From Gammaproteobacteria bacterium LSUCC0096 (GTDB taxonomy: Bacteria; Pseudomonadota; Gammaproteobacteria; Pseudomonadales; Litorivicinaceae): DNA of 64,000 nucleotides. Of this stretch, positions 316 through 26,396 are shown piece after piece. Both the position numbers and the translations under genes were made by a program. The notes under the pieces are model-generated. The model did no database searches, was not told the origin of the DNA, and was given only the letters and a program-made list of their open reading frames with translations. Location: assembly GCA_008087055.1 (NCBI GenBank), contig VIEA01000001.1:1178014-1242013 (forward strand), read 5' to 3'. Numbering within the stretch: position 1 is the stretch's first letter; each line of letters begins with the position of its first letter.

Positions 316-918
316 TTATTTTTCCGAAAAAAATTTCAAAAACATTAAACCTGAACCATGACTTTTTTCGGGGTGAAACTGCGAACCCAAAATAGCCCCC
401 CTCTCAAATCCTGTTGTAAACTGATCGCCATAGATTACTACCGACCTGCAATCTGAGGATTCGTCCAAGTCGCAGTAATATGAGTGGAGGAAATAAAATT
501 CACGTGTCCAAACACTTGAGTGATCAGACACCCCAATGTTTGCATTCCATCCGACGTGCGGCACTCTAAATTGACTATTACAACCAGCAAGTTTCCTAAC
601 ATTTCCGGGGATAAGACCGAGCCCTTCGCACTCCCCCTCTTCACTGTAATCCAACAGCATTTGTGCGCCAACGCAAACACCAAGAAGGGGCCATCCATCA
701 TTGACTCTTGAAATCAAGTCCGACAACAGACCGGAAGCTCTCAGCTTGGCCATAGCAACATCAAACCGACCAACACCCGGCAGTATGATATGGCTAACAC
801 CACTGAATTCGGACGGATCTCTAATTAGCCGAGTGTCTAGGCCAATATCTTTGCAACTGTTGATGAAGGCATTCACGTTCCCTAAACCATAATCCAAAAT
901 ACCGATTAATGGCATCAT
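316..918 (-). CDS. HisH-like glutamine amidotransferase of the acetamidino trio (WbuY type)
   Basis: This is a class I glutamine amidotransferase of 200 residues, the usual HisH length. The nucleophile is Cys82 in GVCVGAQ, and the His182/Glu184 dyad lies in QFHPEK, so the catalytic triad is complete. It hydrolyses glutamine and should channel ammonia to the HisF-like barrel encoded immediately downstream. Its start overlaps the stop of the sugar amidotransferase gene by four bases (ATGA); a second ATG follows at once, so the start may be one codon later. The HisH-HisF-WbuX arrangement is known from O-antigen loci (for example Pseudomonas aeruginosa wbpG-hisH2-hisF2) where an N-acetyl group becomes an acetamidino group. 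A role in histidine synthesis is unlikely because the pathway genes are absent. Confidence 0.88.
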   Translation of the reverse strand: MMPLIGILDYGLGNVNAFINSCKDIGLDTRLIRDPSEFSGVSHIILPGVGRFDVAMAKLRASGLLSDLISRVNDGWPLLGVCVGAQMLLDYSEEGECEGLGLIPGNVRKLAGCNSQFRVPHVGWNANIGVSDHSSVWTREFYFLHSYYCDLDESSDCRSVVIYGDQFTTGFERGAILGSQFHPEKSHGSGLMFLKFFSEK

Positions 919-7422: not shown

Positions 7423-9117
7423 TTATTGCTTATAAACGAGATTACCGATTGAATCGCCGCCCATTAGCATTGGGCTTATGTCATCATCAGTGTTTATATC
7501 TACTATTAACAACGAAGGCACTGAGTCTAGCAGTAATCTCCGAAACACTTCGTAAAACGACTCGTATGAGCACACTTCGGACTTCAACCCGAATCCCTCA
7601 GCTACGACCCCCAGATTTCCAGAGTCAAAATCGCTCGTGGTGTAGTCAACGCCAAAAGTGTAATTTTGAAATCTTGAAACTATTCCTAGACGGTTATTTC
7701 TTACAACGACAATCAATATATTCAACTGACGCTCACCGATTGACGCCAGCTCAGCGAGGTTATGCATTATAGAACCATCGCCCACAATACACACAACCTT
7801 ATCAAAATCTCCACTTTGGGCAACTCCGATACTCGCAGGAACATCGAAACCCATCGTTCCATGCCCAGCTGAGGTCACCAAAATTCGGTCGGGTAACTTG
7901 AACGCCAAATATCTAGCAGCCCAATGCTGATGATTACCTACCCCCGTGACTACCGCATATCGTTTTAGAGTCTTTAAACAATTATTAATCTGCTCGAAGA
8001 CCAACCTGGCAGAAGTTTTATTTCCCTCAGAATCAACGTCATTGGCGCTTATAGTTTTGAAATGATCAATCTGCGATAACCATTCATCTGTAACCGAAAT
8101 CCTCGCATCGAAGCTATGAATGAATTCACTAATTTCCATGTTCAACGCTAGATCGAGCTTGACTCTACTGTAGTCTATCTCGCTCATATCGCTATTCACA
8201 GAAATCAGAGTTTTTCCGTTTACAAAATCCTCTACCTCAGTACCAGTTTGTCGCACATCCAATCTCGACCCCAGAACTATCAAAAGATCGCAAGTTGCGA
8301 CCGCTAAATTCGCTATGTCGTGCCCCGTGTGGCCTAGATATCCCAAGTAAAAAGAGCTATCTGTATCAATCACACCTATTCCTCGGAAGCTAGACACGAC
8401 GGGGACACCCAATTTTTCTATGAAGACTTGGAGCTCCATGGGATTTTGATTCTGAGTGCCGCCGCCACCCACCAGTACTAACGGTCGCTGACAGTCATCA
8501 AATAATCTCTGCAAGTCTCTAGTCATCATTTGATGGTGTTCATTTTTGGCGGTGTTAGATTGTCTAATTGGTACCCGGAAAGAGTGACTAGCGAGGATTG
8601 AATCCGAGCGCTGTATGTCCATAGGAAAATCGATAACGAGGGGCCCATCCCTACCTGTAAGAAACTCTTCCAAAAAACAATTTAACTGATTCGCCAATGG
8701 TATATCTGCCTGAATCTGAACGCTTAATTTAGAAATAGGCTTAGTGATCGACACCGTATCACACTGCTGAAACCCGACTTGCCTCACCAAGCGCCCTGAA
8801 TTCAGATCAGAAGTACCAACCTGTCCACACACAAAAATTATCGGCAGCGAGTCAAAGAATGCATCGGCGATGCATGACACGACATTCGTTACACCAGGAC
8901 CTGATGTAACAAATACGACCTGAGGCATTTTGGTAGCAATCGCCATACCGATAGCTGCATAGCCCGCACCTTGCTCACCCTTGTATGTTTCGATGCACAA
9001 GCCTCTCTTGGCGCAAGCATTTATAAGAGGCGCAATAGTGCCACCCGGGTAGAGATGAACCGCGCGCAAATCAAACGCTTCAGATAACAGCTTTATAAAC
9101 AATTCCGCGTTATTCAA
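7423..9117 (-). CDS. Thiamine-pyrophosphate enzyme, acetolactate-synthase-like
   Basis: This 564-residue TPP enzyme has the full three-domain architecture: the catalytic Glu48 in YKGEQGAGYAAIG, a central domain with GSRLDVRQTG (the counterpart of the acetolactate synthase RFDDRVTG segment) and the C-terminal TPP-binding GDGSIMHN...N motif. No small regulatory subunit or ilv gene is nearby, so branched-chain amino acid synthesis is unlikely. Known relatives in polysaccharide loci, such as YerE of the yersiniose pathway, add a two-carbon unit from pyruvate to a keto-sugar. That role is a plausible inference here. The start codon is TTG, supported by a strong AGGAAG Shine-Dalgarno 7-8 bases upstream and a 4 bp TTGA overlap with the preceding gene. 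Confidence 0.85.
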   Translation of the reverse strand: MNNAELFIKLLSEAFDLRAVHLYPGGTIAPLINACAKRGLCIETYKGEQGAGYAAIGMAIATKMPQVVFVTSGPGVTNVVSCIADAFFDSLPIIFVCGQVGTSDLNSGRLVRQVGFQQCDTVSITKPISKLSVQIQADIPLANQLNCFLEEFLTGRDGPLVIDFPMDIQRSDSILASHSFRVPIRQSNTAKNEHHQMMTRDLQRLFDDCQRPLVLVGGGGTQNQNPMELQVFIEKLGVPVVSSFRGIGVIDTDSSFYLGYLGHTGHDIANLAVATCDLLIVLGSRLDVRQTGTEVEDFVNGKTLISVNSDMSEIDYSRVKLDLALNMEISEFIHSFDARISVTDEWLSQIDHFKTISANDVDSEGNKTSARLVFEQINNCLKTLKRYAVVTGVGNHQHWAARYLAFKLPDRILVTSAGHGTMGFDVPASIGVAQSGDFDKVVCIVGDGSIMHNLAELASIGERQLNILIVVVRNNRLGIVSRFQNYTFGVDYTTSDFDSGNLGVVAEGFGLKSEVCSYESFYEVFRRLLLDSVPSLLIVDINTDDDISPMLMGGDSIGNLVYKQ

Positions 9118-12167: not shown

Positions 12168-13432
12168 TCCCGCAGCAGCTCCTCTAGTCTAGGAAGGTCA
12201 TCATACCAATCAAAGAGCGGCTGCTGCTTACGATCCAACTCTTGAGCAATGGTTCTCGTATTGAACCCACACTCAATGCAAAAACGAGTCAACTCATCTG
12301 ACCCAACCAAACAGCCGCACTTTTCCAACAAATCCCACATTACGCCATCGCCAACCAACTGAGCATCGGTCGAGCGATCAATCAGTATTAAAAAAGGCTT
12401 ACGAAACGCCAATCTCTGATACAGTAGGCTGGGTGAGGGATCACAAAATATGACAACGCTTGCATAAAAACACTCTGTTCTCCTTACGCCTTTCCCTATT
12501 TTTCGTTGCGGCCAAAATCCAGAAACTATGGCTGCTGTTCGCTCGGGGTGAAATCCAAAGTAACCGTTATCAAAATGAGACAATAAGTAACCAATATTTT
12601 GACTTCTGAAACCTTCGCTCGGCCATGAAATGGAGTCACAAAAAATAATGTCGTATCGCGCAAACGGCCCAAATATTTTCGGATAGCGCCTGTAACGAGT
12701 TTGCCTAACACTAGTCTGACCAAAACCCCAATAGATAAATTTTTTACAACCAGACTCCTCGATTTTGTGTATCAAAGATTGATTGCCTAATCCATATTCA
12801 CCACCGTGCTGTATGTAAAAAACATCACAGTTTTTTATTTTCGTCGCCAAAGACAGCAAAGGATCTTCTAAAAAACCGAATACAGTCGCTGCAACCACTC
12901 TGGGAATTTTTATATCCATTGCCTTTGCGTATATTATAGAAAAATTCTCTAAATGCGATGTAGGGTAAATCTGAGCGATTTCCATTGCCCGCACCTTCGT
13001 AACTTCGTTTTCAATCAAAAACTGCTCGAATCGTTTTCGCAAATGAAAATCCAAGACACGAGATTCGCGTTTCAACCTAATCGAGAACCTCGAACAGAAA
13101 TGGCAAAAATTGCGAAAAGAAGCTGAATAATGTATTAGATAATCTTTATTTAAAAAATAAAAATTATCTAAAAACGAATTAAAAAGAAAAAATCTTAAAA
13201 ACCACTTTTCTAAAACGCCACTTTTGCCAACTAAAATAGAGTAAAATGAAGGAAAAACCTTTTCACGATCACTGCACACAATATTTTTATACAAATACAT
13301 ATATGCAAATACTTTTATCTCGGAATTCTTATCGAAATCAATATCGATACCCAAAACTTTTTGATTGGCTAAATTAATTTGGCTAGCTAAAGTAGCAACA
13401 TCTCTTTCAGAAACTTGATTGCTGGACAACAT
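12164..13432 (-). CDS. LIC12162-like putative transferase (short form)
   Basis: A protein of about 422 residues that I place in the LIC12162-type putative transferase group, on the basis of a YIQHGGEYG segment (208-216) followed by a predicted YWGFG, the same pair seen in the longer relative at 42072-43835 (VGQHGANYG and LTWGWED). The fold is probably GT-B-like, with the histidine near the active site. The N-terminal third is AT-rich, Phe-rich and not recognisable. The annotated ATG at 13432 is preferred over a TTG two codons earlier. These proteins occur near nonulosonic-acid genes, and a role as the glycosyltransferase for such a sugar is plausible but unproven. Confidence 0.55.
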   Translation of the reverse strand: MLSSNQVSERDVATLASQINLANQKVLGIDIDFDKNSEIKVFAYMYLYKNIVCSDREKVFPSFYSILVGKSGVLEKWFLRFFLFNSFLDNFYFLNKDYLIHYSASFRNFCHFCSRFSIRLKRESRVLDFHLRKRFEQFLIENEVTKVRAMEIAQIYPTSHLENFSIIYAKAMDIKIPRVVAATVFGFLEDPLLSLATKIKNCDVFYIQHGGEYGLGNQSLIHKIEESGCKKFIYWGFGQTSVRQTRYRRYPKIFGPFARYDIIFCDSISWPSEGFRSQNIGYLLSHFDNGYFGFHPERTAAIVSGFWPQRKIGKGVRRTECFYASVVIFCDPSPSLLYQRLAFRKPFLILIDRSTDAQLVGDGVMWDLLEKCGCLVGSDELTRFCIECGFNTRTIAQELDRKQQPLFDWYDDLPRLEELLRE

Positions 13433-13443
13433 ACCCAACTGGA

Positions 13444-15399
13444 TTACTCTAACTCGTACCTGATAGACGATCGGAATCTCGTCGGAGCCTCACCCTTTGC
13501 AGTGTCATCGAGTTCTGAAGCGGACAAACAGAATCGTTGAGGACCTATCAAACGATTCGAATCTGGAACCGCAAAGCTCGTCACTAGACCGGCCGCCAAA
13601 GACTGCGCATGATCGATATCGATCTTCAATCGAAAATCATCTCCGTAAAATGAGATCGTTTCATCAGTCAGAGGCAAAGCGGTCGAAACTGAAACCTTTT
13701 CCGATATTGGCTGACTGTGGTCAAAAGAAGTTCCCAGTAAGCTATAAGAAATTGGTGTATATCCGCACGCACATTTGTACGAGCTGGCTCGACTGCTCGG
13801 AAAAAATGTCACATATCCATACCTCAACGATTGCGGTTGTGCCTGGTGAAAATCGAAAAAATAATCGATGAGTAGCGAATTGCCTTTGATGGAATAGGTT
13901 TTTTTGTAATTGCCAAATTCAAACCTCTCAATAATTTCTACGCTCGTTCGGCCCTCTGACGTGTTAATTTTCGCTCCACGCGCCCGAAGATCTGAAAACT
14001 TGTTTCTACACTGTGTAATTAATTGCATATGACCAGAAAAATAATCGACATTATGGCTTTGGCCAGTGAAGGTACCCTGAGGAACTAACCCAAAAATTGG
14101 ATTCCACGTTCCATCGTCACCCCGTTTAGCAACTGTTGCCAAGGTCCAACCTCGTCGCTTATTGATCAATACCCTTAACCGGTCGGTATCAATTTGCAAA
14201 TAAAATTCGTCATCTCTAGAGATTGTTGACTTTGACGATGAGTCTGTTGCATGAAAATTTTTATCGTTAACAAAATACGGTTCTTTGTCCGCACTAGAAC
14301 AAACTTTTTTTTCTAACTGAGAAACAATTGTCTTCCAGCGACTTTCAGAAATATGTGTCCTAAAATCACTCGCCCAAATTCTCAAAAACTCTCTCTCATC
14401 AATATTAGTTAGAGCAAGATGTTGATGCTTCTTAAAATATCTCCAACACAACGTATTCAAGTAACGATCGTTCCATCCGGATAATAACCAGCGAGATACA
14501 TTATATTTAGGTTGCTTTTTTTCCACGATGGGTCGATGAGCGGAGAAAAAAAGATCAGCGCTTACTACAGGTGCCTTCATACTGAACACATCATCGATAT
14601 CTTGAGCATAGATCCCAAAATCCCCAATATTTCTCAGCAAGGTCTCCATCCGCACCCAATCTAACCGTGGATCAGCACCAGATTCTTCTTTAAATCTCCC
14701 GGGACGGAACCCAAAAATCTCGACATCGCTCCCATAAAGAGGAATAGGTATCGCATTTCCAGCTTTGGGGTCACGATTTAAACTGGTGATATTCTCAATC
14801 TGCTCAAGATAATCAGTTAGATTCAATTCTCCATATACCGCACGCTGAAAACTCTGAAATAAAGCTGAATCATTCAGCCCAATAGTTAAATCAAACTCCT
14901 CCAAGCTGCATGAGCTATAGGGGAATTCGGACCATTCCCTTATCTTTGTATCCAAACCGGGGCTTTTTCTATCCAAGATAACCTTATTAATTCCTAAGTC
15001 CGAATACATCATTAAAAGATCGCGACTCGCCACTTGCTCATTCAATAAAAAAATATCTGGTTGTAACTCGAATAATCTGCGGTAGATCTTATTTCCTAAC
15101 GCGATATTTGATTTCGTTACACTCGGCGGCGATGCAACCGAAATTATCTGAGCATAACCACTTCCAATCAAAGTGATGAGCCGCCGGTTAATCAGGGTTC
15201 GCATGTAGTCAATAACTGGAGCATTCAACACGGCAATTTGCTCTAAGGTATACCCAGTTATCTCAATACCGCATTTGATTTCTAATTTTTCAATCAAATT
15301 AAAAAGTGGAATATATGAATGCTCAATAACATCCTTTCTATCGGACTCGTTAATAGCCGAAAATTCGATATTCATATGAAAAAACAAAAAATAAGTCAT
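13444..15399 (-). CDS. Glycoside hydrolase family 57-like / polysaccharide deacetylase-fold protein
   Basis: This 651-residue protein has no signal peptide and should be cytosolic. The N-terminal domain resembles the GH57/GH38 seven-stranded barrel: ITGYTLEQI (48-56), LITLIGSGYAQII, LNEQVASRDLL with a Glu in the position of the GH57 nucleophile motif, and later YGSDVEIFGFRPGR with an Asp. The C-terminal 250 residues look beta-rich. GH57-like proteins without secretion signals occur in surface-glycan loci with nonulosonic-acid genes, where they may act as transferases or as editors of intermediates rather than starch hydrolases. The domain call is moderately sure; the biological role is unknown. 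Its ATG overlaps the upstream PseG-like gene by 4 bp. Confidence 0.55.
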   Translation of the reverse strand: MTYFLFFHMNIEFSAINESDRKDVIEHSYIPLFNLIEKLEIKCGIEITGYTLEQIAVLNAPVIDYMRTLINRRLITLIGSGYAQIISVASPPSVTKSNIALGNKIYRRLFELQPDIFLLNEQVASRDLLMMYSDLGINKVILDRKSPGLDTKIREWSEFPYSSCSLEEFDLTIGLNDSALFQSFQRAVYGELNLTDYLEQIENITSLNRDPKAGNAIPIPLYGSDVEIFGFRPGRFKEESGADPRLDWVRMETLLRNIGDFGIYAQDIDDVFSMKAPVVSADLFFSAHRPIVEKKQPKYNVSRWLLSGWNDRYLNTLCWRYFKKHQHLALTNIDEREFLRIWASDFRTHISESRWKTIVSQLEKKVCSSADKEPYFVNDKNFHATDSSSKSTISRDDEFYLQIDTDRLRVLINKRRGWTLATVAKRGDDGTWNPIFGLVPQGTFTGQSHNVDYFSGHMQLITQCRNKFSDLRARGAKINTSEGRTSVEIIERFEFGNYKKTYSIKGNSLLIDYFFDFHQAQPQSLRYGYVTFFPSSRASSYKCACGYTPISYSLLGTSFDHSQPISEKVSVSTALPLTDETISFYGDDFRLKIDIDHAQSLAAGLVTSFAVPDSNRLIGPQRFCLSASELDDTAKGEAPTRFRSSIRYELE

Positions 15400-16382
15400 G
15401 CTATCAACCTTGAAATCAGACGCTTCAGAGTCTGCGAATTAGGCCTTATCTGTTTTAGAAATTTTTTTCGCGCAACATTAAATTTCAATCGAAATTTGGA
15501 GCAATTGATATTACTGGAAAGTTTTATCAACTCCCTTTCTATATTCTCATCTCCAATAACGATAGTGATAAGCCCGGCATCAGCTAAAAACTGTTGCGCG
15601 CAGTCGACCTGACTAGCAGATTGATTTATCACCAAAGAATGTATTCCAAGTGCGATCAACTCATAAACTGAAACACCGAAGGTCGTTACAGCAACCTCAA
15701 CCTTATTTTTGAAAGAAACTAAATTTGGCAACTTATAACAATATTGAACACGGCTAAGGGATTCGAGTCGGCTCCGGTTTTTGACAAAAGGACCAACGGC
15801 CACATAAAACTTTTCAAGCTGCTGCAACCCATTGCTAGTAGATAGTAATCGAGGCAACCAGCTCAAATAATCGAACACATCAGCACCACCAGTTACTATT
15901 AGGCAGTGTCTTACCTCGGCGTTATCGCGACTACTGGTATCAATGCATATTTCGTCTAGAAGCAAACAATCTAGTCCGTAAACCAATGGAGTCTCGCCGA
16001 AAGCTTTTACATCATCGACTGCGGGGGATGGGATATAAACCATATCAACTAAATGTGCTGTCTCAGCAAATCCGTCAATACTTATTATTTTTTTAGACGC
16101 GACACTTAGTATTTCAAACAATTTGAAAAATTCAACTTCGCATTTCTTTAAAGGTATATCTAAAACTACTGTGTCTTCTTTTAATCCGCCAGCACACTTC
16201 TCAGATAACCAATCATAAATCCATGAACCTCCCCTTTGGGATAAATCTTTCTCATCTATTGTCCAATGTTCGATAACCGCAGGAAAAGATTTTTCCAATT
16301 CATTCGCAATTCTTTCGCACCGCTTAAAGTGTCCCAAACCAAAAGTTACGCCTTGAGCGCTTACTATTATAATTCGCGGCAT
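15396..16382 (-). CDS. PseG/SpsG-like nucleotide-sugar hydrolase
   Basis: A GT28/MurG-like protein of 328 residues. The N-terminus reads IIIVSAQGVTFGLGHFKRCERIA, matching the GxGHxxR loop of PseG and SpsG. VTTFGVSVYELIALGIHSLVI near residue 240 corresponds to the conserved nucleotide-sugar site where PseG has a glycine-rich GGST-like element; here it is TFGVS, so one loop is altered. PseG removes UDP from UDP-2,4-diacetamido-2,4,6-trideoxy-hexose before NeuB-type condensation. Being next to the NeuB-like gene supports that role. The changed loop leaves open a different leaving nucleotide. Confidence 0.75.
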   Translation of the reverse strand: MPRIIIVSAQGVTFGLGHFKRCERIANELEKSFPAVIEHWTIDEKDLSQRGGSWIYDWLSEKCAGGLKEDTVVLDIPLKKCEVEFFKLFEILSVASKKIISIDGFAETAHLVDMVYIPSPAVDDVKAFGETPLVYGLDCLLLDEICIDTSSRDNAEVRHCLIVTGGADVFDYLSWLPRLLSTSNGLQQLEKFYVAVGPFVKNRSRLESLSRVQYCYKLPNLVSFKNKVEVAVTTFGVSVYELIALGIHSLVINQSASQVDCAQQFLADAGLITIVIGDENIERELIKLSSNINCSKFRLKFNVARKKFLKQIRPNSQTLKRLISRLIA

Positions 16383-16391
16383 CGATGTCTT

Positions 16392-17246
16392 TCACTCAAT
16401 ATCAGAGCGAATTTGCCTGAGAGGACGCTTTCCATCCGAAGGGCAGGCTCTCCATAGCCTTTCAATGGCTTCAGATTCACTTGGTTCTTTAATTCCAGAG
16501 CCATCAATAATAGATCTATATTTCAGCGCGTTGATAACATTACCAGCCTCACTCGCCAGGTAACAATGGCCAGCCGAATACTCGCTGCCGTTACCATCGA
16601 TATCGATATGCATCTCCACATGGCTAGCTTTCCAACGATCTACTGCTCGGTAGATTACAAACGGATTCCTAGTGTGGTCAGACCAACCAATGTCACACCC
16701 GAACCTATTTCTCAATTCGCCTATGGCAGACAGATTCAAGCTCTCAGGTTCAGCGGGGTAAACCGATACACAATGAAGTAAGGTCAAATTGCCGTTACCT
16801 GAGCCTTTGAACGCTTCGACAGCTGCATCCACTTCGTCTAATGAAGCCATCCCAGTGGAAAGTATTAAAGGAAGATTCGTTTCAGCACACCTAGTTATAA
16901 GTTCCAACCAAAGGAGTTCGTATGACGCGACTTTTATAAAATCCACATACGGAGATATCAGATCTACTGCCTCAAGGTAAAAAGGGGTACATCCAAACTC
17001 TAAATTTAGGGATCTCGCGTGAGCCGCCAGATCGGGTATAAACTCAGGATTAAGTTCCCACTTCTTTCGCGCCAAGTGGTCGGGAGAAGATCGTAGAACC
17101 TCGTCACAAAAAAGCTCCTCCACCTTAAACAGCTGAAACTTCACCGCATCAAAGCCCGCTTTCGAAGCCTCATCAATCGATTGGATGCATCTCGCAAAAC
17201 TTGCATTATGGTTACTGGAAACTTCTGCTATGAACTTACATGTCAT
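16392..17246 (-). CDS. NeuB/PseI-family sialic-acid-like synthase lacking the SAF domain
   Basis: This enzyme should condense phosphoenolpyruvate with a six-carbon amino sugar to a nine-carbon nonulosonic acid. The TIM-barrel residues are all there: Glu8 in AEVSSNHN, Lys36 in AVKFQ, STGMAS (130-135), His191 in WSDHT and His213 in VEMH, the last two being the metal ligands. At 284 residues it stops where other members (about 340-350 residues) continue into the antifreeze-like SAF domain, whose arginine reaches into the partner subunit. The reading frame ends at a normal stop and the gene overlaps its upstream neighbour by 11 bp, so this looks like a natural short form, not a frameshift. Substrate specificity may therefore differ from PseI, NeuB or LegI. 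Confidence 0.87.
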   Translation of the reverse strand: MTCKFIAEVSSNHNASFARCIQSIDEASKAGFDAVKFQLFKVEELFCDEVLRSSPDHLARKKWELNPEFIPDLAAHARSLNLEFGCTPFYLEAVDLISPYVDFIKVASYELLWLELITRCAETNLPLILSTGMASLDEVDAAVEAFKGSGNGNLTLLHCVSVYPAEPESLNLSAIGELRNRFGCDIGWSDHTRNPFVIYRAVDRWKASHVEMHIDIDGNGSEYSAGHCYLASEAGNVINALKYRSIIDGSGIKEPSESEAIERLWRACPSDGKRPLRQIRSDIE

Positions 17247-18507
17247 CTATTTCTATCTCGACCACGTTTAAAGCTAGTTGCGCCATCATCTCACTCCGTT
17301 CTCGACTGTCAGATGACACAATAACGTATCCGAACCGATCTGAATGCTTTTGAATAACTGGCTGATTTTCCCCAGGCTTCCTAAACAAGTCATACTGCAA
17401 TAACCCGGGCACAGCTAACAATTTATCCTCTCCTTCGATACCTTTCACCGTCCCACTGGGTGGGAACCAATACCGGATACACGTACTTTTATTTTTAGTG
17501 GCCACCAACATTTCTTTCGGCACTGGGCGACCAAGCGCCATAAGTATCTGAATTGTAATTAAGTCTATGCCTCGAGCCTCTGGAATCTGATGCGATGAAA
17601 ACCAACCGCCAGACAATCTCGGGGCGAGCTCGATGATCATCGGCCGACCATCATCGGACATCACTAGGTCGCCTTTCAAAATCCCATCATTGAAGTTTAA
17701 GGCCAAAGCAGCATCTTTTAATACTTTATCAATAGCGCATTCTAATGAATGAGGATACTGGTCCCAGATAGTCCCGCCGTCCTCGATAATATGAGGGCGG
17801 AACTCGTCAAGTCTTGAGTAATTCCTCTCTGCTATCCCACAGGTGGTAAGCCGCCCTTCTATAATCACTGACTCTGTGGAATACTGAACTCCACCAATGA
17901 ACTCTTCGCATAATATCCCAGGAATTTTTGAGGCATTAGACGATTTCTGCCAAGCTAGTTCCAGATCAGAATTATGATCGACCAACACAACACCTAACGA
18001 TCCTCTACCGTCCCTAGGCTTAAGCACGAACCTGCTATCTACTCCAGTCGTTAGGAACCAACCTTCAAACTCTTTATAATTTTTGAAATACCAATACTTG
18101 GGACTTAAAATCCCTCCGTGTTGCATGATTCGCTTGAACTCTAGCTTATCACTAAATTTTTCGACTACTTCTGGGCTATGTCCGGGCAAATTAAAAAATT
18201 CTGCAACGCGAGCGACCGAGTAAGGTACATCATTAGCGGCTGTAGTAACCCCGGCGAAATTCAAACCGGAAAGATGCAGAGTTTTGAGCTTACCCAACAA
18301 TAACTCGATATCTCTTACGGACGCAATTACCTTATAGTCACTAAGCTGGAGCCCTGGAGCACAAGCATCTCTATCTACTCCGATAATGGCGCATCCCATA
18401 GCTTTTGCTTTCTCATAGCAAGGCACTTGCTCTATCCCAGCCCCAAGGATGATCAAAACCGGCTTATCAATTGATGAAGCACCGGATGTCGAAGTCAGTA
18501 TATTCAT
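17236..18507 (-). CDS. ATP-grasp carboxylate-amine ligase
   Basis: A 423-residue protein with a Rossmann-like preATP-grasp domain (ILGAGIEQVPCYEKAKAMG) followed by an ATP-grasp fold: FVLKPRDGRGSLGVVLV (Lys and the glycine-rich loop, about 170), a lid region CEEFIGGVQYSTE, and a metal-binding end MIIELAPRLSGG. The family joins a carboxylate, as acyl phosphate, to an amine. No biotin-carboxylase or carbamoyl-phosphate context is present. Its partner genes here include an SDR, a radical SAM protein and a second ATP-grasp gene, so it probably attaches a carboxylic acid or amino acid to an amino sugar. The substrate is not known. Confidence 0.75.
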   Translation of the reverse strand: MNILTSTSGASSIDKPVLIILGAGIEQVPCYEKAKAMGCAIIGVDRDACAPGLQLSDYKVIASVRDIELLLGKLKTLHLSGLNFAGVTTAANDVPYSVARVAEFFNLPGHSPEVVEKFSDKLEFKRIMQHGGILSPKYWYFKNYKEFEGWFLTTGVDSRFVLKPRDGRGSLGVVLVDHNSDLELAWQKSSNASKIPGILCEEFIGGVQYSTESVIIEGRLTTCGIAERNYSRLDEFRPHIIEDGGTIWDQYPHSLECAIDKVLKDAALALNFNDGILKGDLVMSDDGRPMIIELAPRLSGGWFSSHQIPEARGIDLITIQILMALGRPVPKEMLVATKNKSTCIRYWFPPSGTVKGIEGEDKLLAVPGLLQYDLFRKPGENQPVIQKHSDRFGYVIVSSDSRERSEMMAQLALNVVEIEIDDM

Positions 18508-19247
18508 TGCTGACCACCACTTACCTCGATCACTTGGCCTGAAATATAAGAAGACTTATCCGAAATCAAAAACTCAATTACGTGACCAATTTCTGACGGG
18601 GTAGCCATCCGTTTCATTGGCAAACTATCAAGCAATGAAGCACCGAGCTCAGCTGACAAAGCAATCTCCTCATCGATCATGTTAGTATCGACTAAACCAG
18701 GCGCGATAGCATTTACTCGAACGTTTTGGCCGATATAGATTTTAGATAATGATTTCGACAAACAGATTAAAGCTGCCTTTGCACAAGCATAATGAACTTG
18801 GAAGACCCCTCCTTTGATTCCGGACACCGATGCAACATTAACGATCGAACCACCCCCGTGCTTTATAAACGAAGGAATAAGATTTTGACTCAAAAACATC
18901 GCTGCCTTTAAGTTTATGTCAAAAACGCGATCCCACCGATCCTCTGTTATTTGCGAGTAAGCGACCCGATCAGCTAACCCCGCGTTGTTTACGAGCGAAT
19001 CAAACCGTAATTCATCGAGCTCAGCATCTGTGAAAACACACTGACTCCAATCAGCGTCTAGGAAATCTATGTAACGAGTTCCGAGATAACAATTGCGCCC
19101 GATTAAATAAAGTCTCAAGTCTTCCAAAAATTGACTTTGTTGGCGCGCAACTAAATATATCTGATGGCCTGCCTCAGCCAAGGTCTTTGCGGTGGCCCTA
19201 CCAATACCCCCACCCGCACCTGTTAGGAGCACTCGTTTTTTAGACAT
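18504..19247 (-). CDS. Short-chain dehydrogenase/reductase (classical SDR)
   Basis: A classical SDR with the cofactor motif LLTGAGGGIGRA, NNAG (about residue 87), the catalytic Ser in VNVASVSG, the YACAK Tyr-Lys pair and the PG-motif IAPGLVDT, ending in GQVIEVSGG. Length and motifs are full. The preference for NADPH or NADH cannot be judged reliably. I start it at the ATG at 19247; a TTG at 19271 would add eight residues and a 20 bp overlap. It lies between the ATP-grasp and radical SAM genes and probably reduces or oxidises the intermediate they make. It resembles FabG-like enzymes, but its context argues against fatty-acid synthesis. Confidence 0.82.
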   Translation of the reverse strand: MSKKRVLLTGAGGGIGRATAKTLAEAGHQIYLVARQQSQFLEDLRLYLIGRNCYLGTRYIDFLDADWSQCVFTDAELDELRFDSLVNNAGLADRVAYSQITEDRWDRVFDINLKAAMFLSQNLIPSFIKHGGGSIVNVASVSGIKGGVFQVHYACAKAALICLSKSLSKIYIGQNVRVNAIAPGLVDTNMIDEEIALSAELGASLLDSLPMKRMATPSEIGHVIEFLISDKSSYISGQVIEVSGGQQ

Positions 19248-19251
19248 TCTT

Positions 19252-20244
19252 CTACAGAACTCGTTCAGCAACTGCCACTTCAGTATTGCACGACTCGCAC
19301 ATTTTCATCTTCCTTCCATTCATAACAGACTGTCGGAACGATTGATAATCAGGTTTGTCCCAGATTTCTTGCAAGCTTTCACGAACAACATTACCAAATG
19401 AATTCTTCGCATGAACATCAAAACAACAACTTGCCGTATCGCCATCAGATGTAATTACGGCATTCTGAATTTCAGGACACGTGGCCACGTTTCCAGATTG
19501 CCCTCTAAGCACCAACTGACCATCAATCAGATCATACCTTCGCACTTCATCGTCTGAATAAAACGTCGATACGTTATCAACAAACTCCTCGTTGGCAGTG
19601 TCTTTGAAAACCATTAAAGATTTTAAATAGCCACAATCTACTCCCAAACTCTTGCAAAGTTCTGTGAATTCTTCCTTTTCATTTTCGTTTTGGCTCGTCA
19701 CGATCATCTGCATTTCAACGTACGGTTTATTATCGTTCATCTCATTCCTGATTCGTATAAAATTTCTAACGTTCTCGATGACGCGGTCAAACTTTCCACC
19801 AACTCTAATGAGCTCGTAAGATTCTTTTCGTGCACCATCAAGCGAAATTATTAAACGATCTAGCCCTGCCTTTATAAGCTGTTGGGATTTTTTGTCTGTA
19901 AGAGCCATACCATTAGAGTGAATAACAGACGGGATGCCACAGTGCTTCAGATAGCTGATCATCTGGGAAATATTTTTATTCAACAACGGTTCTCCGCTGT
20001 AAGTGAAGCAAATTTGAAAATTGAATTTCCCGTTTATTTTATCGATAAAAGATTTAAAAGAATCGAAATCCATCTCTTTTTTTTCTCTATCGTCTAGAAC
20101 TGATTCACCGGGTATATAACATGGGCACATAACGCACCGCATATTACAGTCCGCGTGAACTTCTATATAGATGGATCGAGGATACTCTTTATTCTCCCGC
20201 AAAAAATCGGACAGATACTGTTTATATTCATCATAACTTTTCAT
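19252..20244 (-). CDS. Radical SAM protein with SPASM-type C-terminus
   Basis: The N-terminal part carries the radical SAM cluster motif CNMRCVMC (Cys33, Cys37, Cys40), then a FTYSGEPLLNK element and HSNGMALT, all typical. The C-terminus has further cysteines (CPEIQN, CCFDVH, MCESC) in a SPASM/Twitch-like arrangement, suggesting auxiliary iron-sulfur clusters. The family does radical epimerisation, dehydrogenation, C-C bond formation or similar on peptides and sugars. The protein has no leader-peptide-binding RRE domain and no precursor peptide is nearby, so a sugar or small-molecule substrate is more likely than a RiPP. Four-base overlap with the upstream ATP-grasp gene implies co-translation. 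Confidence 0.85.
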   Translation of the reverse strand: MKSYDEYKQYLSDFLRENKEYPRSIYIEVHADCNMRCVMCPCYIPGESVLDDREKKEMDFDSFKSFIDKINGKFNFQICFTYSGEPLLNKNISQMISYLKHCGIPSVIHSNGMALTDKKSQQLIKAGLDRLIISLDGARKESYELIRVGGKFDRVIENVRNFIRIRNEMNDNKPYVEMQMIVTSQNENEKEEFTELCKSLGVDCGYLKSLMVFKDTANEEFVDNVSTFYSDDEVRRYDLIDGQLVLRGQSGNVATCPEIQNAVITSDGDTASCCFDVHAKNSFGNVVRESLQEIWDKPDYQSFRQSVMNGRKMKMCESCNTEVAVAERVL

Positions 20245-21305
20245 TTGATCACAATTTCCTCTTGGAAAACCTCATCGACAAATAAATGATACACGTTTAC
20301 GTCATAGTTACTTTTCTCAGTCCCATACAAAGAAGCCCTTAGCTCAACAAATCTTGGCGCATGCGTGGCAACTAACTTTGACTCATCGACCTCTTGCTCG
20401 CCAATCGAACTTAAATAAAATTCCCAAGGATCTATCCCTAAGGATAATGGAATTATGCGAGTTAGACCTATTTCACCGTGAAATCTAGGCCCCACTTCCA
20501 AAAGATAAATTTGATCATCTATCATTGAATAAATAACGTCTGCTTTTACTGGAGAGTTTCTGACATCCAATTTGCGACAGACTTGCTCAAACATTTCGAA
20601 AGCCCGCTCAACAATACCATCTTCTATGTTCGGAGGTGAAATGACCGAGCTTTGAACGAAAGAGTTATTAGCCGTAGCAAAGGCCCGCTGCACAGCCCCC
20701 ATGCGATAAAATGAGCTTCCGACCATCATCCCATTCAGGTCTAAACAAATCCCGTCTACAACTTGCTCAATAACTAAGCCAGACTCATATGCCGCAGCTT
20801 CATCATAAAATTTCCTCAAGTCCGCAGGTGTTTTAGCAGAATAAATACCTCGACTGCTCGACAAATTAGGCACTTTCACGACAACACCATTTGGAGCACC
20901 ATCAAAAAAATCTACGGCATCAGAAAAATCTCGGGGCACAATCCCTGGCGTTAAGGGTAGATCATATTTCGAAGCAAGATCGCGTAATTTAATCTTGTCT
21001 TCTGAAGCTACGGCAAACTCCATTGATGCATGCGGCAAGCCCAACATTTCCTGTATCTTTGCCACTGCGATATTTCTATCGGTCGAGGAATACACCGCCT
21101 TTGGCTTATACTTCTGAGCAATATTCAGTAACGCGGGGTAATCATCTGCTGACACATTAAAAAAATGCTCCACATGCTCAGCCCCTAACGCTTCAGGGTC
21201 AATATCTGTTCCAATCAGAGCATAGCCTCTCTCAGCCGTCTTCCGCATTAACGGTATCGACGCTCTCGAGACCCCTATGAACATAAAAAATGATTTTTCA
21301 ATCAA
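20241..21305 (-). CDS. ATP-grasp ligase (second copy)
   Basis: A second ATP-grasp enzyme of 354 residues. After a Rossmann-like start (FIGVSRASIPLMRKTAERGY) come GVVVKVPNLSSSRGIYS (ATP-binding Lys and loop, about 150), LVIEQVVDGICLDLNG and a metal site IYLLEVGPRFHGEIG. It is clearly distinct in sequence from the one at 17236-18507. The start is a TTG, supported by AGGTG about 7 bases upstream. It overlaps the radical SAM gene and follows the class III aminotransferase gene by 6 bp, so the four enzymes probably form one short pathway. It may ligate the amine or acid made by the aminotransferase. Confidence 0.75.
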   Translation of the reverse strand: MIEKSFFMFIGVSRASIPLMRKTAERGYALIGTDIDPEALGAEHVEHFFNVSADDYPALLNIAQKYKPKAVYSSTDRNIAVAKIQEMLGLPHASMEFAVASEDKIKLRDLASKYDLPLTPGIVPRDFSDAVDFFDGAPNGVVVKVPNLSSSRGIYSAKTPADLRKFYDEAAAYESGLVIEQVVDGICLDLNGMMVGSSFYRMGAVQRAFATANNSFVQSSVISPPNIEDGIVERAFEMFEQVCRKLDVRNSPVKADVIYSMIDDQIYLLEVGPRFHGEIGLTRIIPLSLGIDPWEFYLSSIGEQEVDESKLVATHAPRFVELRASLYGTEKSNYDVNVYHLFVDEVFQEEIVIK

Positions 21306-21311
21306 CTGCTT

Positions 21312-22637
21312 TCACCTAGTTAGACGCCCGAACGAGGCGATCCTATTCTCTTGTCTTGACAGATCAGCGCCATCTGACAGCTCCGAAAAAACTTGATCCA
21401 CCGCTTGCGCGTAATCTAATAAGTCTCCTTCAGCATGCGCCACACTAGGCCTAAACTGCGATCCTGCCAAAAACCCAAGCTGAAGCATAGATATAGTGAA
21501 AAAGGTTTCACGCTCATAGCTTTCGTCTCCAACGAATCCAAACGACGGGAGCGGATCTATCCCTGACACATTTATGGGAATCGAGTACTTCAAACTAGCA
21601 TTACGCCAGCACTCTTTAATAACCCGTCCTGTTCTACATAACTTTTCACCAGCATTTTCTTTTTGAAACTTCTCAGTGGTTGCTATAGCCGCAGCAAGAC
21701 CAGTTCGCTCTGTCCAATTAGTACTTGAAACAAATGTCTTTTTCACGAATCCAGCGGTGTGACGATCTACCAAAACTGCCGCTATAGGATAACCGTTACC
21801 GAGTGCTTTAGCCAAAACAGAGATATCTGGCTCGACATTTAAAATTCTGTGCATACCACCAACACAACACCTGTATCCAGACGTAATCTCGTCGAAAATA
21901 ACCTTAGCTCCGATATCATGAGCAAATTTTATTAAGTCGGTGAGATACCCGCTTTCAGCTGCTACTCCGCGTGCAGGCTCTATTATAACGGCTGCCACCT
22001 CTTTTTCTCGCCCACTGCAAGCCTTCTTCAAGTGATCAATATCATTTGCCTTGAATGGAATAGCCGTCAGAGCTAAAGCTTTCGGTACGCCGAGAGGCTC
22101 GAGACCTGGCATTAAATGACCGTTCAAGCTGTCTTGCCCAGCGTGATTAGCTGACAGATACCAATCGTGCCAACCGTGATACCCACTAAAAAGCACTAAT
22201 TCTCTATCCGTAGAAGCTCGCGCAAATCTGACGGCCATTGCCATAGCCTCCCCACCGGACTTCGCAAAACGAACACCGGATGCATGACTGTGAAGCCCCA
22301 CCAATAGTTCGGCCAATTCCAATTCATCGATGCTGTTCAGCGTGCTCGAAACCCCGTTTAAGACTCCGTCAATAACCGCCTTGTCAACATAATCATCTGC
22401 GTAACCAAAAATACAAGCGCCGACAGACATATTGGAAAAATCTTGGAATTCCCTTCCATCTAAATCCCATATGGAAATTCCTTTCGCCTTGCTATAATAG
22501 GCTGGCCACACGTTCGGAGCATAAAGCTCCGACCTCTTTGAAAAAAGCTGCGTTTTACCAGGCACTAGGCCTTCGTTGTTAAAATACCGATTAACACCTG
22601 TTGAGTTACATAACGACTCAAGCGAATATTTAATCAT
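21312..22637 (-). CDS. Class III aminotransferase (glutamate-1-semialdehyde-aminomutase-like)
   Basis: A PLP enzyme of 441 residues with fold-type I class III features: the phosphate loop SGGEAMAMAVRFAR (127-140), GYHGWHDW (152-159), FDEITSGYR (Asp249 for the pyridine nitrogen) and the Schiff-base Lys277 in LAKALGNGYPIAAV. The similarity is to the HemL-like branch, which moves amino groups between adjacent carbons or transaminates. It is not expected to make heme here, since no hem context exists. It may make an unusual amino acid or diamine that one of the ATP-grasp enzymes then attaches to a sugar. This functional step is inference. Confidence 0.85.
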   Translation of the reverse strand: MIKYSLESLCNSTGVNRYFNNEGLVPGKTQLFSKRSELYAPNVWPAYYSKAKGISIWDLDGREFQDFSNMSVGACIFGYADDYVDKAVIDGVLNGVSSTLNSIDELELAELLVGLHSHASGVRFAKSGGEAMAMAVRFARASTDRELVLFSGYHGWHDWYLSANHAGQDSLNGHLMPGLEPLGVPKALALTAIPFKANDIDHLKKACSGREKEVAAVIIEPARGVAAESGYLTDLIKFAHDIGAKVIFDEITSGYRCCVGGMHRILNVEPDISVLAKALGNGYPIAAVLVDRHTAGFVKKTFVSSTNWTERTGLAAAIATTEKFQKENAGEKLCRTGRVIKECWRNASLKYSIPINVSGIDPLPSFGFVGDESYERETFFTISMLQLGFLAGSQFRPSVAHAEGDLLDYAQAVDQVFSELSDGADLSRQENRIASFGRLTR

Positions 22638-23391
22638 TATCCAACTCCAAAGATCTCAAATATCCTTCATTCCTGATGATACCGGCATTCAAGTTCATTA
22701 CGTCTGGCATTATCTTTATCACACCGTTGATTGTAGGCCAATCAGCATAGATGATTGATCCAAAATCTCGCTCGATGCGGCTAACCAGCTGTCTCACCAC
22801 CACAAGATCCACTGGTTCATCAACCGTCAACCTCAGGTTCGATAGTCCAATAAACTTTTGAACGCCAAGCACTTTAAAATCCGATTCGTTTTTAAGCATA
22901 AAAGGGCACACATGCTCTCGTTCTGAACGCAAAACCGCTGATTCATGGGCTCTTTTTAGCGCATCATAACTGAACACAGTGCAGTCCAACCCATCTGGAA
23001 ATTCACCGTCCAAACCGACTAAATCATGGGAGCCACTCAAAAAAATTTCACATAATTCATCAATTAACGATGGGTCTACCAGAGGACAGTCACCCGTTAT
23101 TCGAACAATAGCATCAGCACCATAGGATGACGCACACTCATAATATCTACTCAACACATCAGACAACGATCCGCGAAAACATAGATAACCTCGACTGGCG
23201 CACCACGCAGATAAAACATCATCCGAAGGGTCACTGGAAGTCGCCACAATGACTTCACCAACAAGACTTGCCCGCGAAACACGCTGTACCACACAATCCA
23301 AAACCGTCAACCCCTCCACTAACGATTTTAATACTTTCCCGGGCAACCTACTCGAAGACATCCTTGCCTGAATAATCGCTGAAAACTTCAT
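22630..23391 (-). CDS. SpsF/NeuA-like cytidylyltransferase for a nonulosonic acid
   Basis: A nucleotidyltransferase of the SpsF group. It has the N-terminal substrate loop AIIQARMSSSRLPGKVLK, the RGSLSDVLSRYYECA region and RITGDCPLVD with the metal-binding Asp. The SpsF group gives CMP-nonulosonic acids, as the pseudaminic-type synthases do. I start it at the ATG at 23391, giving an ATGA overlap with the aldo/keto reductase gene; the ATG at 23406 would add five residues. It sits within the same run as PseB and PseC, so it is the likely CMP-activating step of the pathway, although its sequence cannot show which acid it uses. Confidence 0.82.
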   Translation of the reverse strand: MKFSAIIQARMSSSRLPGKVLKSLVEGLTVLDCVVQRVSRASLVGEVIVATSSDPSDDVLSAWCASRGYLCFRGSLSDVLSRYYECASSYGADAIVRITGDCPLVDPSLIDELCEIFLSGSHDLVGLDGEFPDGLDCTVFSYDALKRAHESAVLRSEREHVCPFMLKNESDFKVLGVQKFIGLSNLRLTVDEPVDLVVVRQLVSRIERDFGSIIYADWPTINGVIKIMPDVMNLNAGIIRNEGYLRSLELDND

Positions 23392-24254
23392 ACACTCAAA
23401 CACCATCTGCGAGGATCAACGAGGGAGCAAGGACCTTCGCCAAAATAAGGCACAGAAAGAGGTTGAAGACTCTCGTAGGAAAAGATATGAGCGAGCTGAG
23501 CAGGAGAGTTAGCCCCGATTACGATATCCTGCAAAATATCTTGAGACCGAGCCCATGACAAACAGGCAAATACTGGATCCACATCATTCTCACGAACCCA
23601 GTTGTACCAAGATTGAAGTTCACTAAATTTTTTGAAATATCTTGGTAGATCAGCAAAAGAGTCTACCAATAAAATGCCCTGCAAAAAAACCGATCGCGCA
23701 TCGACTTTAATATTCAATTCTTTATAAGTATTTTTATTCAAGTGCGAAACAAATCTATTGTCGAATATATTCAGTGGAACTTGTAATATATTGGCAATTT
23801 CAAAACTCCCCTGCCATCTTAGGATTTCATCACTATACAGCGAAAAACCAACCTCTTCAGCAAAGCCAAGATCAAGTATTGCTGTAAATATTGAGTTAAC
23901 GGCTGGAATATCACTAGGGCGAAGTTGATACGCATCATGAATCATCAACTTTTGGAAATTTGAAACTCTCAACGTAGTTAAATCGAATTCAAGTTCGCGC
24001 AGAACCGATATGCATTTCCTAACCCTCCCACCTTCAAAAATTGAAAACTTTGAAGATACCAAAAAATCATTCATTCCGTACTCACCAAGTATTTTATGGC
24101 AATCTCCGTATGAATGAGCCGTATCCAGATAGTTAATTTTCCATTTTTTTGCCATTTCTAATATAGAAAAACATTGATCATAAGATAATGACTTAACTTC
24201 ATTAGTCACACCGTAAGACTGTCCAAACTGGGCACAACCGAGACTTAAGCTCAT
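23388..24254 (-). CDS. Aldo/keto reductase
   Basis: A TIM-barrel NAD(P)H aldo/keto reductase, 288 residues long. The catalytic tetrad is visible: Asp44 and Tyr49 in YLDTAHSYGD, Lys69 in VSSKFS and a His in LMIHDAY. Nothing suggests membrane association. It lies directly after PseC, and overlaps both neighbours. Aldo/keto reductases are found in several nonulosonic-acid loci, where they may reduce a keto intermediate or a side-chain precursor. Its substrate here is unknown. Confidence 0.85.
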   Translation of the reverse strand: MSLSLGCAQFGQSYGVTNEVKSLSYDQCFSILEMAKKWKINYLDTAHSYGDCHKILGEYGMNDFLVSSKFSIFEGGRVRKCISVLRELEFDLTTLRVSNFQKLMIHDAYQLRPSDIPAVNSIFTAILDLGFAEEVGFSLYSDEILRWQGSFEIANILQVPLNIFDNRFVSHLNKNTYKELNIKVDARSVFLQGILLVDSFADLPRYFKKFSELQSWYNWVRENDVDPVFACLSWARSQDILQDIVIGANSPAQLAHIFSYESLQPLSVPYFGEGPCSLVDPRRWCLSV

Positions 24255-25417
24255 TTAAAAAAACTTTTTATTTGATCTATGGAGTACTCTAAGTGCAAAT
24301 CAGAGAGACTTGGGAATATAGGGAGAGAAACAGTCTTATTAAAATGTATCTCAGAGTTAGTGCAATACCCCTTAACAAAACCTAAAGACTTGTAGTAGGG
24401 ATGCCTGTAAATTGGAATATAGTGAATGTTTACGCCTAATCCTTGCCCTTTCAAATATTTGTATAAATTATTTCTGTTATTCGTTCGAATACAAAAGAGA
24501 TGATGAGCTGAGTTTTTCTCATTATCAAAAAACTCTATTGGTAAACTAGACAATTCTTCCCTATACACGGCTTGAATTTGAGTACGCCTCTTGATGAAAG
24601 ACTCAATTTTTCTCAACTGCGTCAACCCGAGTGAAGCGCTAATATCATTCATCCTATAATTAAAGCCTAGATCGACTTGAGCATAATTCCATATTTCTTC
24701 TGTAGGTGATGAACGACCGGTTTCATAATCTCGGACGATGCCGTGTGATCTAAAACGTCCGAGTTTAGCGGCCATATCTGAACAATTGGTTGTGACACAA
24801 CCACCCTCGCCCGTTGTGATGGGCTTTACAGGATGGAAGCTAAAGACAACGGCTTCGGAATAGTTATTCGAGCCAATCGGTTTGCTGGCGAACGAGCCAC
24901 CCAGTGCATGAGAAGCATCTTCAATAATTTTAAATCCGTACTCTTGCTTAAGCTCATGGATTCGGTCCATTTGAGCTGAAAATCCTGCGAAGTGCACAAC
25001 TATTATGACTTTAGGTAATTTTCCGCCGACCCTTGCTTCCAGAAGTTTTGCTGCTAGGAGATCAACACAAATGTTACCCGACTTTAAATCGATGTCACAA
25101 AAATCTACATCGCCCCCCAAATATCTTACACAATTTGCTGAGGCGACGAAGGAGTTTGCAGACGTCCAAACGCTGTCTCCCGCGCCAACACCTAGAGCCC
25201 AACAAGCAGCATGAAGAGCACTTGTTGCGCTATTGAACGCAACGCAATAAGAGGCATGCACGTATTCACTCAAAGCTTTTTCAAATTGTGGTACGCGTTC
25301 ACCTTGAGTAAGGTTTGGCGACCTTAAGCAATCCACGACCCCAGCAATATCATCTTCGCCGATCGTCTGACATCCATAGGGAATATACAGCTTAGACGAA
25401 TTTTCAAGCGTACCCAT
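24251..25417 (-). CDS. pseC: PseC-like UDP-4-keto-6-deoxy-HexNAc aminotransferase
   Basis: A DegT-family PLP aminotransferase of 388 residues with closest resemblance to PseC: SFHPVKPITTGEGG carries the Schiff-base Lys198, and EDASHALGG carries Asp167. PseC aminates UDP-2-acetamido-2,6-dideoxy-beta-L-arabino-hexos-4-ulose, made by PseB, to the 4-amino altrosamine. The gene overlaps the PseB gene by 14 bp, the usual neighbour pair. The normal next step is N-acetylation by PseH, but no GNAT-type PseH gene is in the locus. Confidence in the family is high; that the product is exactly pseudaminic is less sure. Confidence 0.88.
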   Translation of the reverse strand: MGTLENSSKLYIPYGCQTIGEDDIAGVVDCLRSPNLTQGERVPQFEKALSEYVHASYCVAFNSATSALHAACWALGVGAGDSVWTSANSFVASANCVRYLGGDVDFCDIDLKSGNICVDLLAAKLLEARVGGKLPKVIIVVHFAGFSAQMDRIHELKQEYGFKIIEDASHALGGSFASKPIGSNNYSEAVVFSFHPVKPITTGEGGCVTTNCSDMAAKLGRFRSHGIVRDYETGRSSPTEEIWNYAQVDLGFNYRMNDISASLGLTQLRKIESFIKRRTQIQAVYREELSSLPIEFFDNEKNSAHHLFCIRTNNRNNLYKYLKGQGLGVNIHYIPIYRHPYYKSLGFVKGYCTNSEIHFNKTVSLPIFPSLSDLHLEYSIDQIKSFFK

Positions 25418-26396
25418 TATCTCGAGCCCACATTAGCAGTTGACTAGTTGTCATAACTTCTTCACACGATGAACTATCAAAGCATGAAGCCTTTGTAGGT
25501 TTACCGAGTTGAAGCCGTGAATGATTCTTATCCCACGGGACAGATTGCGGATAAACAATAAAATAATTTTCGTATTCGTGTGCACATTGGGCTTCCTCTG
25601 GCATCAATAAAGCTTCATGCAGTTTCTCACCCGGCCTAATGCCGATTAAATCATGCCTACAGCCAGGCGCTATAGCCTTGGCCACATCAACAACGCGCAT
25701 ACTAGGGACTTTCCGAATGAATATATCACCGCCTATGGAGTTTGCCATTGCAAATAAAACAGATTCGGCAGCTTCGTCCAAAGTAATCATAAACCGGGTC
25801 ATACGCTCATCCGTTATTGTGACTACTCCTGTATTTTTCTGGTCAAAAAATAATGGAATGACCGATCCTCTGGAACCCATAACATTGCCGTAGCGAACAA
25901 CAGAAAATTTTGTCCTTCCGCTTGCCGAGTAGCTATTAGCGGCTACAAAAATTTTGTCTGACGCCAACTTCGTAGCCCCGTATAAATTAGCAGGGTTACA
26001 GGCTTTATCTGTAGATAATGCTATAACTCGATGAACGCCACGATCTATAGCAGCATCAACTACATTCATCGCGCCTACAATATTCGTTTTAATACACTCA
26101 AAGGGGTTGTATTCAGCCAGCGGAACTATCTTTGAGGCTGCGGCATGGATCACTATATCGATGCCGTCGAAAGCTCTAAGCAGTCGTTCTTTGTCACGCA
26201 CATCTCCCAGGAAAAACCGCAGTCTCGATTCAGTTTCATAATTCCTGGCCATTTCCCATTGTTTCATCTCATCCCGAGAGTAGACTACCACCCTTGAAAC
26301 TTCAGATTTCCCCAACAACTGCTCAACGAAATGTTTTCCAAACGACCCTGTCCCACCAGTTATCAGAACCGATTTCCCGCGGCAAAAATCAAACAT
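25404..26396 (-). CDS. pseB: PseB-like UDP-GlcNAc 4,6-dehydratase (inverting)
   Basis: An SDR of 330 residues. It has the NAD(P) motif ITGGTGSFGK, the active-site string LSTDKACNPANLYGATK with Asp/Lys and the YxxxK pair, VRYGNVMGSRGSVIP, and the C-terminal IRPGEKLHE found in PseB and its relatives. PseB converts UDP-GlcNAc to UDP-2-acetamido-2,6-dideoxy-beta-L-arabino-hexos-4-ulose, the first step to pseudaminic acid. A 74 bp gap separates it from the WbpM-like gene upstream, one of the larger gaps in the operon. It keeps a Tyr at the catalytic position, unlike the WbpM-like protein with a Met. Confidence 0.9.
   Translation of the reverse strand: MFDFCRGKSVLITGGTGSFGKHFVEQLLGKSEVSRVVVYSRDEMKQWEMARNYETESRLRFFLGDVRDKERLLRAFDGIDIVIHAAASKIVPLAEYNPFECIKTNIVGAMNVVDAAIDRGVHRVIALSTDKACNPANLYGATKLASDKIFVAANSYSASGRTKFSVVRYGNVMGSRGSVIPLFFDQKNTGVVTITDERMTRFMITLDEAAESVLFAMANSIGGDIFIRKVPSMRVVDVAKAIAPGCRHDLIGIRPGEKLHEALLMPEEAQCAHEYENYFIVYPQSVPWDKNHSRLQLGKPTKASCFDSSSCEEVMTTSQLLMWARDNGYA

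Follow-up and report, generated by a model that had tools for sequence, protein, structure and literature searches.

A SAF-less NeuB-family gene and its neighbours

The gene considered here lies at 16392-17246 of the window, by which we mean the whole analysed stretch of 64,000 nucleotides. The plus strand of this interval is not open; the gene is on the minus strand and runs from an ATG to a stop codon without a frameshift, encoding 284 amino acids. The Pfam scan finds the NeuB barrel (PF03102) at residues 24-226 (1.9e-51; 175 bits against a cut-off of 22.1) and detects no SAF domain with the threshold relaxed to E<=10, in agreement with the original prediction that the protein ends before this domain. 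The NCBIfam equivalog cut-offs are reached neither for NeuB (160.8 against 399.65 bits) nor for PseI (146.8 against 340.25 bits), and the KDO8P and DAHP synthase profiles score much weaker. The upstream ATP-grasp ORF overlaps the gene by 11 bp (its stop is at 17236, the start of the NeuB-family gene at 17246), and the downstream ORF starts at 16382, only 9 bp past the stop, so that there is no room for a SAF domain of about 63 residues after the gene. The relevant features of the window are as follows.

7423..9117, minus strand: SfmB-like thiamine-pyrophosphate (TPP) enzyme, acetolactate-synthase-like (reciprocal best match of S. marisflavi SfmB, 37%)
13444..15399, minus strand: GH57-like retaining glycosidase/transferase, a conserved SfmA neighbour (PF03065; neighbourhood; GH57/GH38 fold)
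15396..16382, minus strand: PseG-like UDP-sugar hydrolase, a weak match below the equivalog cut-off (TIGR03590, 2.8e-10); corresponds to the C-terminal half of the Shewanella cytidylyltransferase-PseG fusion
16392..17246, minus strand: SfmA-type NeuB-family synthase without SAF, 284 aa (PF03102, no SAF, clade, AlphaFold2 mean pLDDT 95)
16407..16472, minus strand: family-specific tail, residues 259-280, E..R.WRA.P.DG.RP....R, where SAF would be (conservation, profile comparison, model)
17236..18507, minus strand: SfmE-like ATP-grasp ligase with LAL_C2 (reciprocal best match of S. marisflavi SfmE, 35%)
18504..19271, minus strand: SfmC-like short-chain dehydrogenase, SDR (domain; reciprocal best match of S. 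marisflavi SfmC, 36%)
19252..24254, minus strand: accessory block outside the conserved core (radical SAM/SPASM protein, second ATP-grasp protein, class-III (GSA-like) aminotransferase, aldo-keto reductase at 23388-24254); the cytidylyltransferase of the next line also lies in this stretch
22630..23406, minus strand: cytidylyltransferase, PseF/SpsF-like (PF02348, 3.8e-24); corresponds to the N-terminal half of the Shewanella fusion
24251..25417, minus strand: PseC, UDP-amino sugar 4-aminotransferase (TIGR03588, 446.7 bits, above the cut-off of 423.5)
25404..26396, minus strand: PseB, inverting UDP-GlcNAc 4,6-dehydratase (TIGR03589, 460.7 bits, above the cut-off of 407.75)

The names of the type Sfm refer to the sfmABCDE operon of flagellin modification in S. 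oneidensis MR-1, where SfmA (SO_3261) is a protein of 290 aa with a NeuB domain (PMC3765264). Deletion of sfmA leaves the flagellins unmodified, and the filament is absent from almost all cells; the modification consists of a nonulosonic acid of 274 Da with a further 236, 250 or 264 Da, and the authors suggest that the glycan may need completion before transfer (PMC3765264, 2013). For PseI, PseG and PseF the same study could identify no clear ortholog. The S. marisflavi locus contains, in this order, MAF, ORFs of 290, 579, 253, 395 and 412 aa, the GH57-like gene and the cytidylyltransferase-PseG fusion; the ORFs match the published sfmABCDE in order and domains (published sizes are 290, 581, 255, 395 and 412). 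Reciprocal best matches between this locus and the window include SfmA, SfmB, SfmC and SfmE, as well as the GH57-like protein and each of the two halves of the fusion, while SfmD and MAF have no match in the window. By sequence, the window gene is of the SfmA type; S. oneidensis SfmA is placed in the clade described below through its Shewanella congeners and not through the sequence of SO_3261. In the literature searched we found no enzymatic activity reported for any SfmA.

The neighbourhood is characteristic. The 46 SfmA loci were compared with 13 loci of SAF-containing NeuBs: an ATP-grasp protein is found in 31 against 1, a GH57-like protein in 27 against 0, an SDR in 26 against 0, and PseG in 18 against 0; the controls are few and were scored by homology to window proteins, and the p values are indicative, as they ignore relatedness. 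The GH57-like protein accompanies SfmA in many phyla; it has invariant N120-E121, D225 and E227, and its E121 aligns with E123 of T. litoralis 4-alpha-glucanotransferase. No role is known to us for a retaining glycosidase among nonulosonic-acid genes.

The Sfm-like genes of the window form part of a polysaccharide locus, in which the SfmB-like one is separated from the others by about 8 kb. Other genes of the window can be mentioned here: an ORF of 424 aa (12164-13438, minus strand) flanked by the GH57-like gene and a glycosyltransferase, with no Pfam (E<=1e-4) or NCBIfam (E<=1e-10) match; a LIC12162-family transferase (TIGR04331, above the cut-off) at 42072-43835, minus strand, whose family is named after a Leptospira O-antigen gene; and a WbuX-type N-acetyl sugar amidotransferase (316-2057, minus strand), which adjoins a glutamine amidotransferase subunit.

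The family, its tail and its active site

Relatives of 51-54% identity and about 284-289 aa occur in 6 of 369 genomes sampled from the same class; the remaining NeuBs of this sample have at most 41% identity and are mostly found in frames of at least 330 aa. Since the relatives have the same length, the shortness is a family trait. The scan of a genome collection with the single sequence as a query gave no match, and the scan with the family alignment gave 80 loci with more than 50 further members from more than 10 bacterial phyla and one archaeon (the phylum labels are those of the record titles, and many records are MAGs). In one GC-rich locus (L042) the ORF caller mis-called several frames. 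Altogether there are 64 complete members (the window gene and 63 relatives) with a median length of 288 aa and the same tail at the end of all.

In a tree of 107 sequences, 63 SAF-less members form one side of one branch (100/100 and 200/200 bootstrap trees), and six Shewanella proteins are within this clade. The 57 members scanned are all without SAF, which is present in 14 of 14 longer NeuBs. The absence of SAF is thus natural and not mutational, because the whole clade shares it; together with the intact frame and the tightly packed neighbours, this bears out the original prediction that the gene was not truncated by mutation. The window protein adds one more member to a widespread family that has been partly characterised; in the literature searched (mostly outside subscription journals) we found no paper that treats this clade without SAF, or its tail, as a subject of its own. 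No SfmA-type gene is seen in 57 other genomes of the same genus, family and order (their NeuB matches are in longer frames or much weaker), and the locus therefore looks acquired or lineage-specific.

The tail (residues 259-280) has 8 of 22 positions invariant across 57 members and is as conserved as the barrel; its motif is R-x-WRADPxDGLRP...R. The window protein differs from the other members in a few places, for example, in having C268 where they have D. The motif filter by which the members were collected extends into the tail; among the sequences of at least 43% identity only three fail it (one is cut by a contig end, and in two the match breaks off at residue 186 or 238, before the tail), so that the invariance is not a product of the filter. 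The original prediction had named a diverged SAF domain in the last 50 residues as a result that would speak against it. The profile alignment of the SfmA clade with SAF-type NeuBs covers the protein from its start as far as about residue 261, and the AlphaFold2 model (mean pLDDT 95 for the whole protein; the best solved matches are NeuBs) presents the tail as ordered helices and coil at pLDDT 88-94, with no strands and no beta-clip, that is, not SAF-like. We also considered the tail as a shrunken SAF remnant, since MAFFT places it on RPGxGxxP, and rejected this: the profile comparison ends before the tail, and the arginines are out of register. These comparisons suggest that SAF has been replaced by a conserved tail of 20 residues, to which we can ascribe only a presumed role; its arginines are hypothetical candidates for handling the active site without the SAF arginine.

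The catalytic residues named in the original prediction, Glu8, Lys36, His191 and His213, are all present and invariant in the 64 family members. Their codons, identified by alignment and invariance, are as follows.

17223..17225, minus strand: Glu8, corresponding to E25 of N. meningitidis NeuB; invariant in SfmA and SAF-type NeuBs
17139..17141, minus strand: Lys36, corresponding to NeuB K53
16674..16676, minus strand: His191, metal-ligand position, corresponding to NeuB H215
16608..16610, minus strand: His213, metal-ligand position, corresponding to NeuB H236

More broadly, E8, K36, K105, S108, Y163, S189, H191, E211 and H213 are invariant and common to the compared SAF-type NeuBs, and the PEP/metal set of N. 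meningitidis NeuB (E25, K53, K129, H215, E234, H236) corresponds to E8, K36, K105, H191, E211 and H213. Judging from the alignment, the PEP- and metal-binding site of the barrel is the canonical NeuB one. The sugar side is different: where SAF-type NeuBs have E-K-H-x-T, the SfmA clade has E-F/M-H-x-D, and E-Y-x-x-G-H-C-W/Y-L stands in place of the GPD motif, whose canonical sugar-side Asp is absent. These replacements support a changed substrate pocket relative to SAF-type NeuBs and, since it is the sugar-side residues that differ, suggest a sugar with an unusual substituent. The original prediction of another substrate fits these clade-specific changes beside the catalytic residues, as well as the unusual gene neighbourhood. 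Mutation of the SAF arginine abolishes the function of C. crescentus NeuB (PMC7591256); considering that the sugar-side Asp is missing as well, the ordinary nonulosonic-acid reaction is not assured.

Proposed function and alternatives

The own genome (99.4% complete) contains one NeuB, the SfmA-type gene, which is thus the sole candidate for the PEP step there. The simplest reading is PEP condensation in a pseudaminic-acid-like pathway, because this gene is the only full NeuB and lies beside PseB and PseC that score above their cut-offs. With a probability of about 0.7, we presume that it encodes an intact SfmA-type synthase which most likely condenses PEP with a sugar derived by PseB, PseC and the PseG-like protein to a nonulosonic acid, without SAF.

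What we say of the reaction catalysed by the window SfmA, of its substrate, of the part played by the tail and of the destination of the product is inferred. PseB and PseC would make a 2,4-diamino-2,4,6-trideoxyhexose derivative, the PseG-like protein would release it in the free form, the SfmA-type enzyme would condense it with PEP to a nonulosonic acid, and the cytidylyltransferase would activate the latter with CMP. The SfmE-like ATP-grasp ligase possibly installs an amide on the sugar, standing in for the missing PseH acetyltransferase. PseH has no match in the own genome, and this says little, since GNAT matches are frequent and only 1 of 25 genomes passes the cut-off; a differently acylated sugar would fit, since an SfmE-like amide ligase is present. 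The product probably enters a cell-surface polysaccharide and not flagellin, because the own genome has no MAF (PF01973) and the flagellins are about 1 Mb from the locus. It is tempting to propose further that SfmA-type proteins are SAF-independent nonulosonic acid synthases in which the tail, lying over the mouth of the barrel, supplies the contact made elsewhere by the arginine of the partner SAF and admits a bulky N-acylated sugar; this extension is tentative, and we rather doubt it.

Alternatively, SfmA could be a PEP-dependent synthase of a different product, contributing to the extra acyl or 236-Da group together with the TPP enzyme, the SDR and the ATP-grasp protein, while the nonulosonic core is made by another enzyme. 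The sugar-side residues are unlike those of all SAF-type NeuBs, and it is the SfmC- and SfmE-like genes, not PseB and PseC, that distinguish SfmA loci from the control ones. In one locus (L037, 9504-11428) a SAF-type NeuB of 353 aa lies directly beside an SfmA-type protein in a cluster near flagellar genes, and, being adjacent, the two may do different steps. A further full-domain NeuB is also found in 6 of 29 SfmA genomes; however, SfmA is the only full NeuB in the other 23, as in the window genome, which leaves these with no second one for the core (the weaker partial matches in SfmA genomes are probably DAHP-synthase-like). Moreover, the sfmA deletion removes the entire mass shift of flagellin and not a part of it (PMC3765264). 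We consider this alternative unlikely.

A NeuB that has degenerated or lost its catalytic activity, such as a truncated gene retained as a scaffold, would agree with the lack of SAF and with the long branch of the window sequence (1.12). This reading is very improbable, considering that every catalytic residue of the barrel is retained, that the same length and tail recur in the 64 complete members from many phyla, that start and stop are packed tightly between the neighbours in a frame with no frameshift, and that sfmA is genetically required in Shewanella (PMC3765264).

The original prediction had also named a separate SAF gene as a finding that would count against it; no separately encoded SAF of the NeuB type was found in the own genome or in the genomes of 19 relatives. 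The own-genome SAF matches above the cut-off are a FlgA-type ORF with two SAF matches, about 1 Mb from the SfmA-type gene, and a homoserine-dehydrogenase-like ORF of 432 aa, about 0.2 Mb from it, both named from their sequences. That some other SAF protein of the cell gives the function in trans is hardly credible in view of these distances and resemblances: SAF proteins do occur in 18 of 19 SfmA genomes tested, and one lies about 5-6 kb from sfmA in Shewanella, but the latter appears to resemble FlgA, which is an exported periplasmic protein, and one of the 19 genomes is without any SAF match.

Comparison with known systems

The preferred reading of a SAF-less synthase has a general side: NeuB-type synthases are regarded as requiring SAF, and a clade found in more than 10 phyla does without it. 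With a homologue genetically required in Shewanella, this suggests some other way of capping the barrel. Nor is the window protein a singular oddity: it is an SfmA-type protein, and SAF is also lacking in a second NeuB clade and in a solved Leptospira chain of 290 residues.

NeuB and PseI (PF03102 with SAF; 1xuu, 8h2c) share with the window protein the barrel fold, the PEP/metal residues and 25-32% identity; in contrast to them, it has no SAF, has D...E..GHCWLP in place of the TxD...GPD region, has its own tail and is below the equivalog cut-offs. The closest solved structures are the N. meningitidis NeuB and the SAF-less chain 6ncs, the 'N-acetylneuraminic acid synthetase' of Leptospira borgpetersenii, which is the best structural match (TM 0.80). 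Unlike the SfmA type, 6ncs is without the SfmA tail in the aligned part, the comparison being with the solved chain, which may not be the full natural protein. In L. interrogans NeuB is fused to a phosphatase-like domain (PMC3438082).

The second SAF-less clade (L116, L117, L118, L121 and L122, from Lentisphaerota, Pelagibacteraceae and Riflebacteria) is similar in that SAF would not fit in its proteins of 276-306 aa. It differs in being separate, among the SAF-type NeuBs, in having its own motifs (KFQKR, SPWGxTQ, GYSGHE, MYGSDQ) and in lacking the SfmA tail. L116 and L122 also have a gene for a TPP enzyme close by. KDO8P and DAHP synthases are likewise SAF-free PEP-condensing barrels, although they are more distant fold matches with about 11-16% identity; since they have no SAF, the domain is not needed for PEP-condensing chemistry in general.

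Finally, the window protein is like S. oneidensis SfmA in having about 290 aa and a NeuB domain only, and in its company of a TPP enzyme, a 3-oxoacyl-ACP-reductase-like SDR and an ATP-grasp protein (compared via S. marisflavi). Unlike the sfm operon, the window genes belong to a polysaccharide locus, with the SfmB-like gene and the flagellins at the distances given above. The SfmA-type, PseG-like and cytidylyltransferase genes of the window are candidates for the PseI, PseG and PseF steps, which the 2013 study of S. oneidensis left without clear orthologs.
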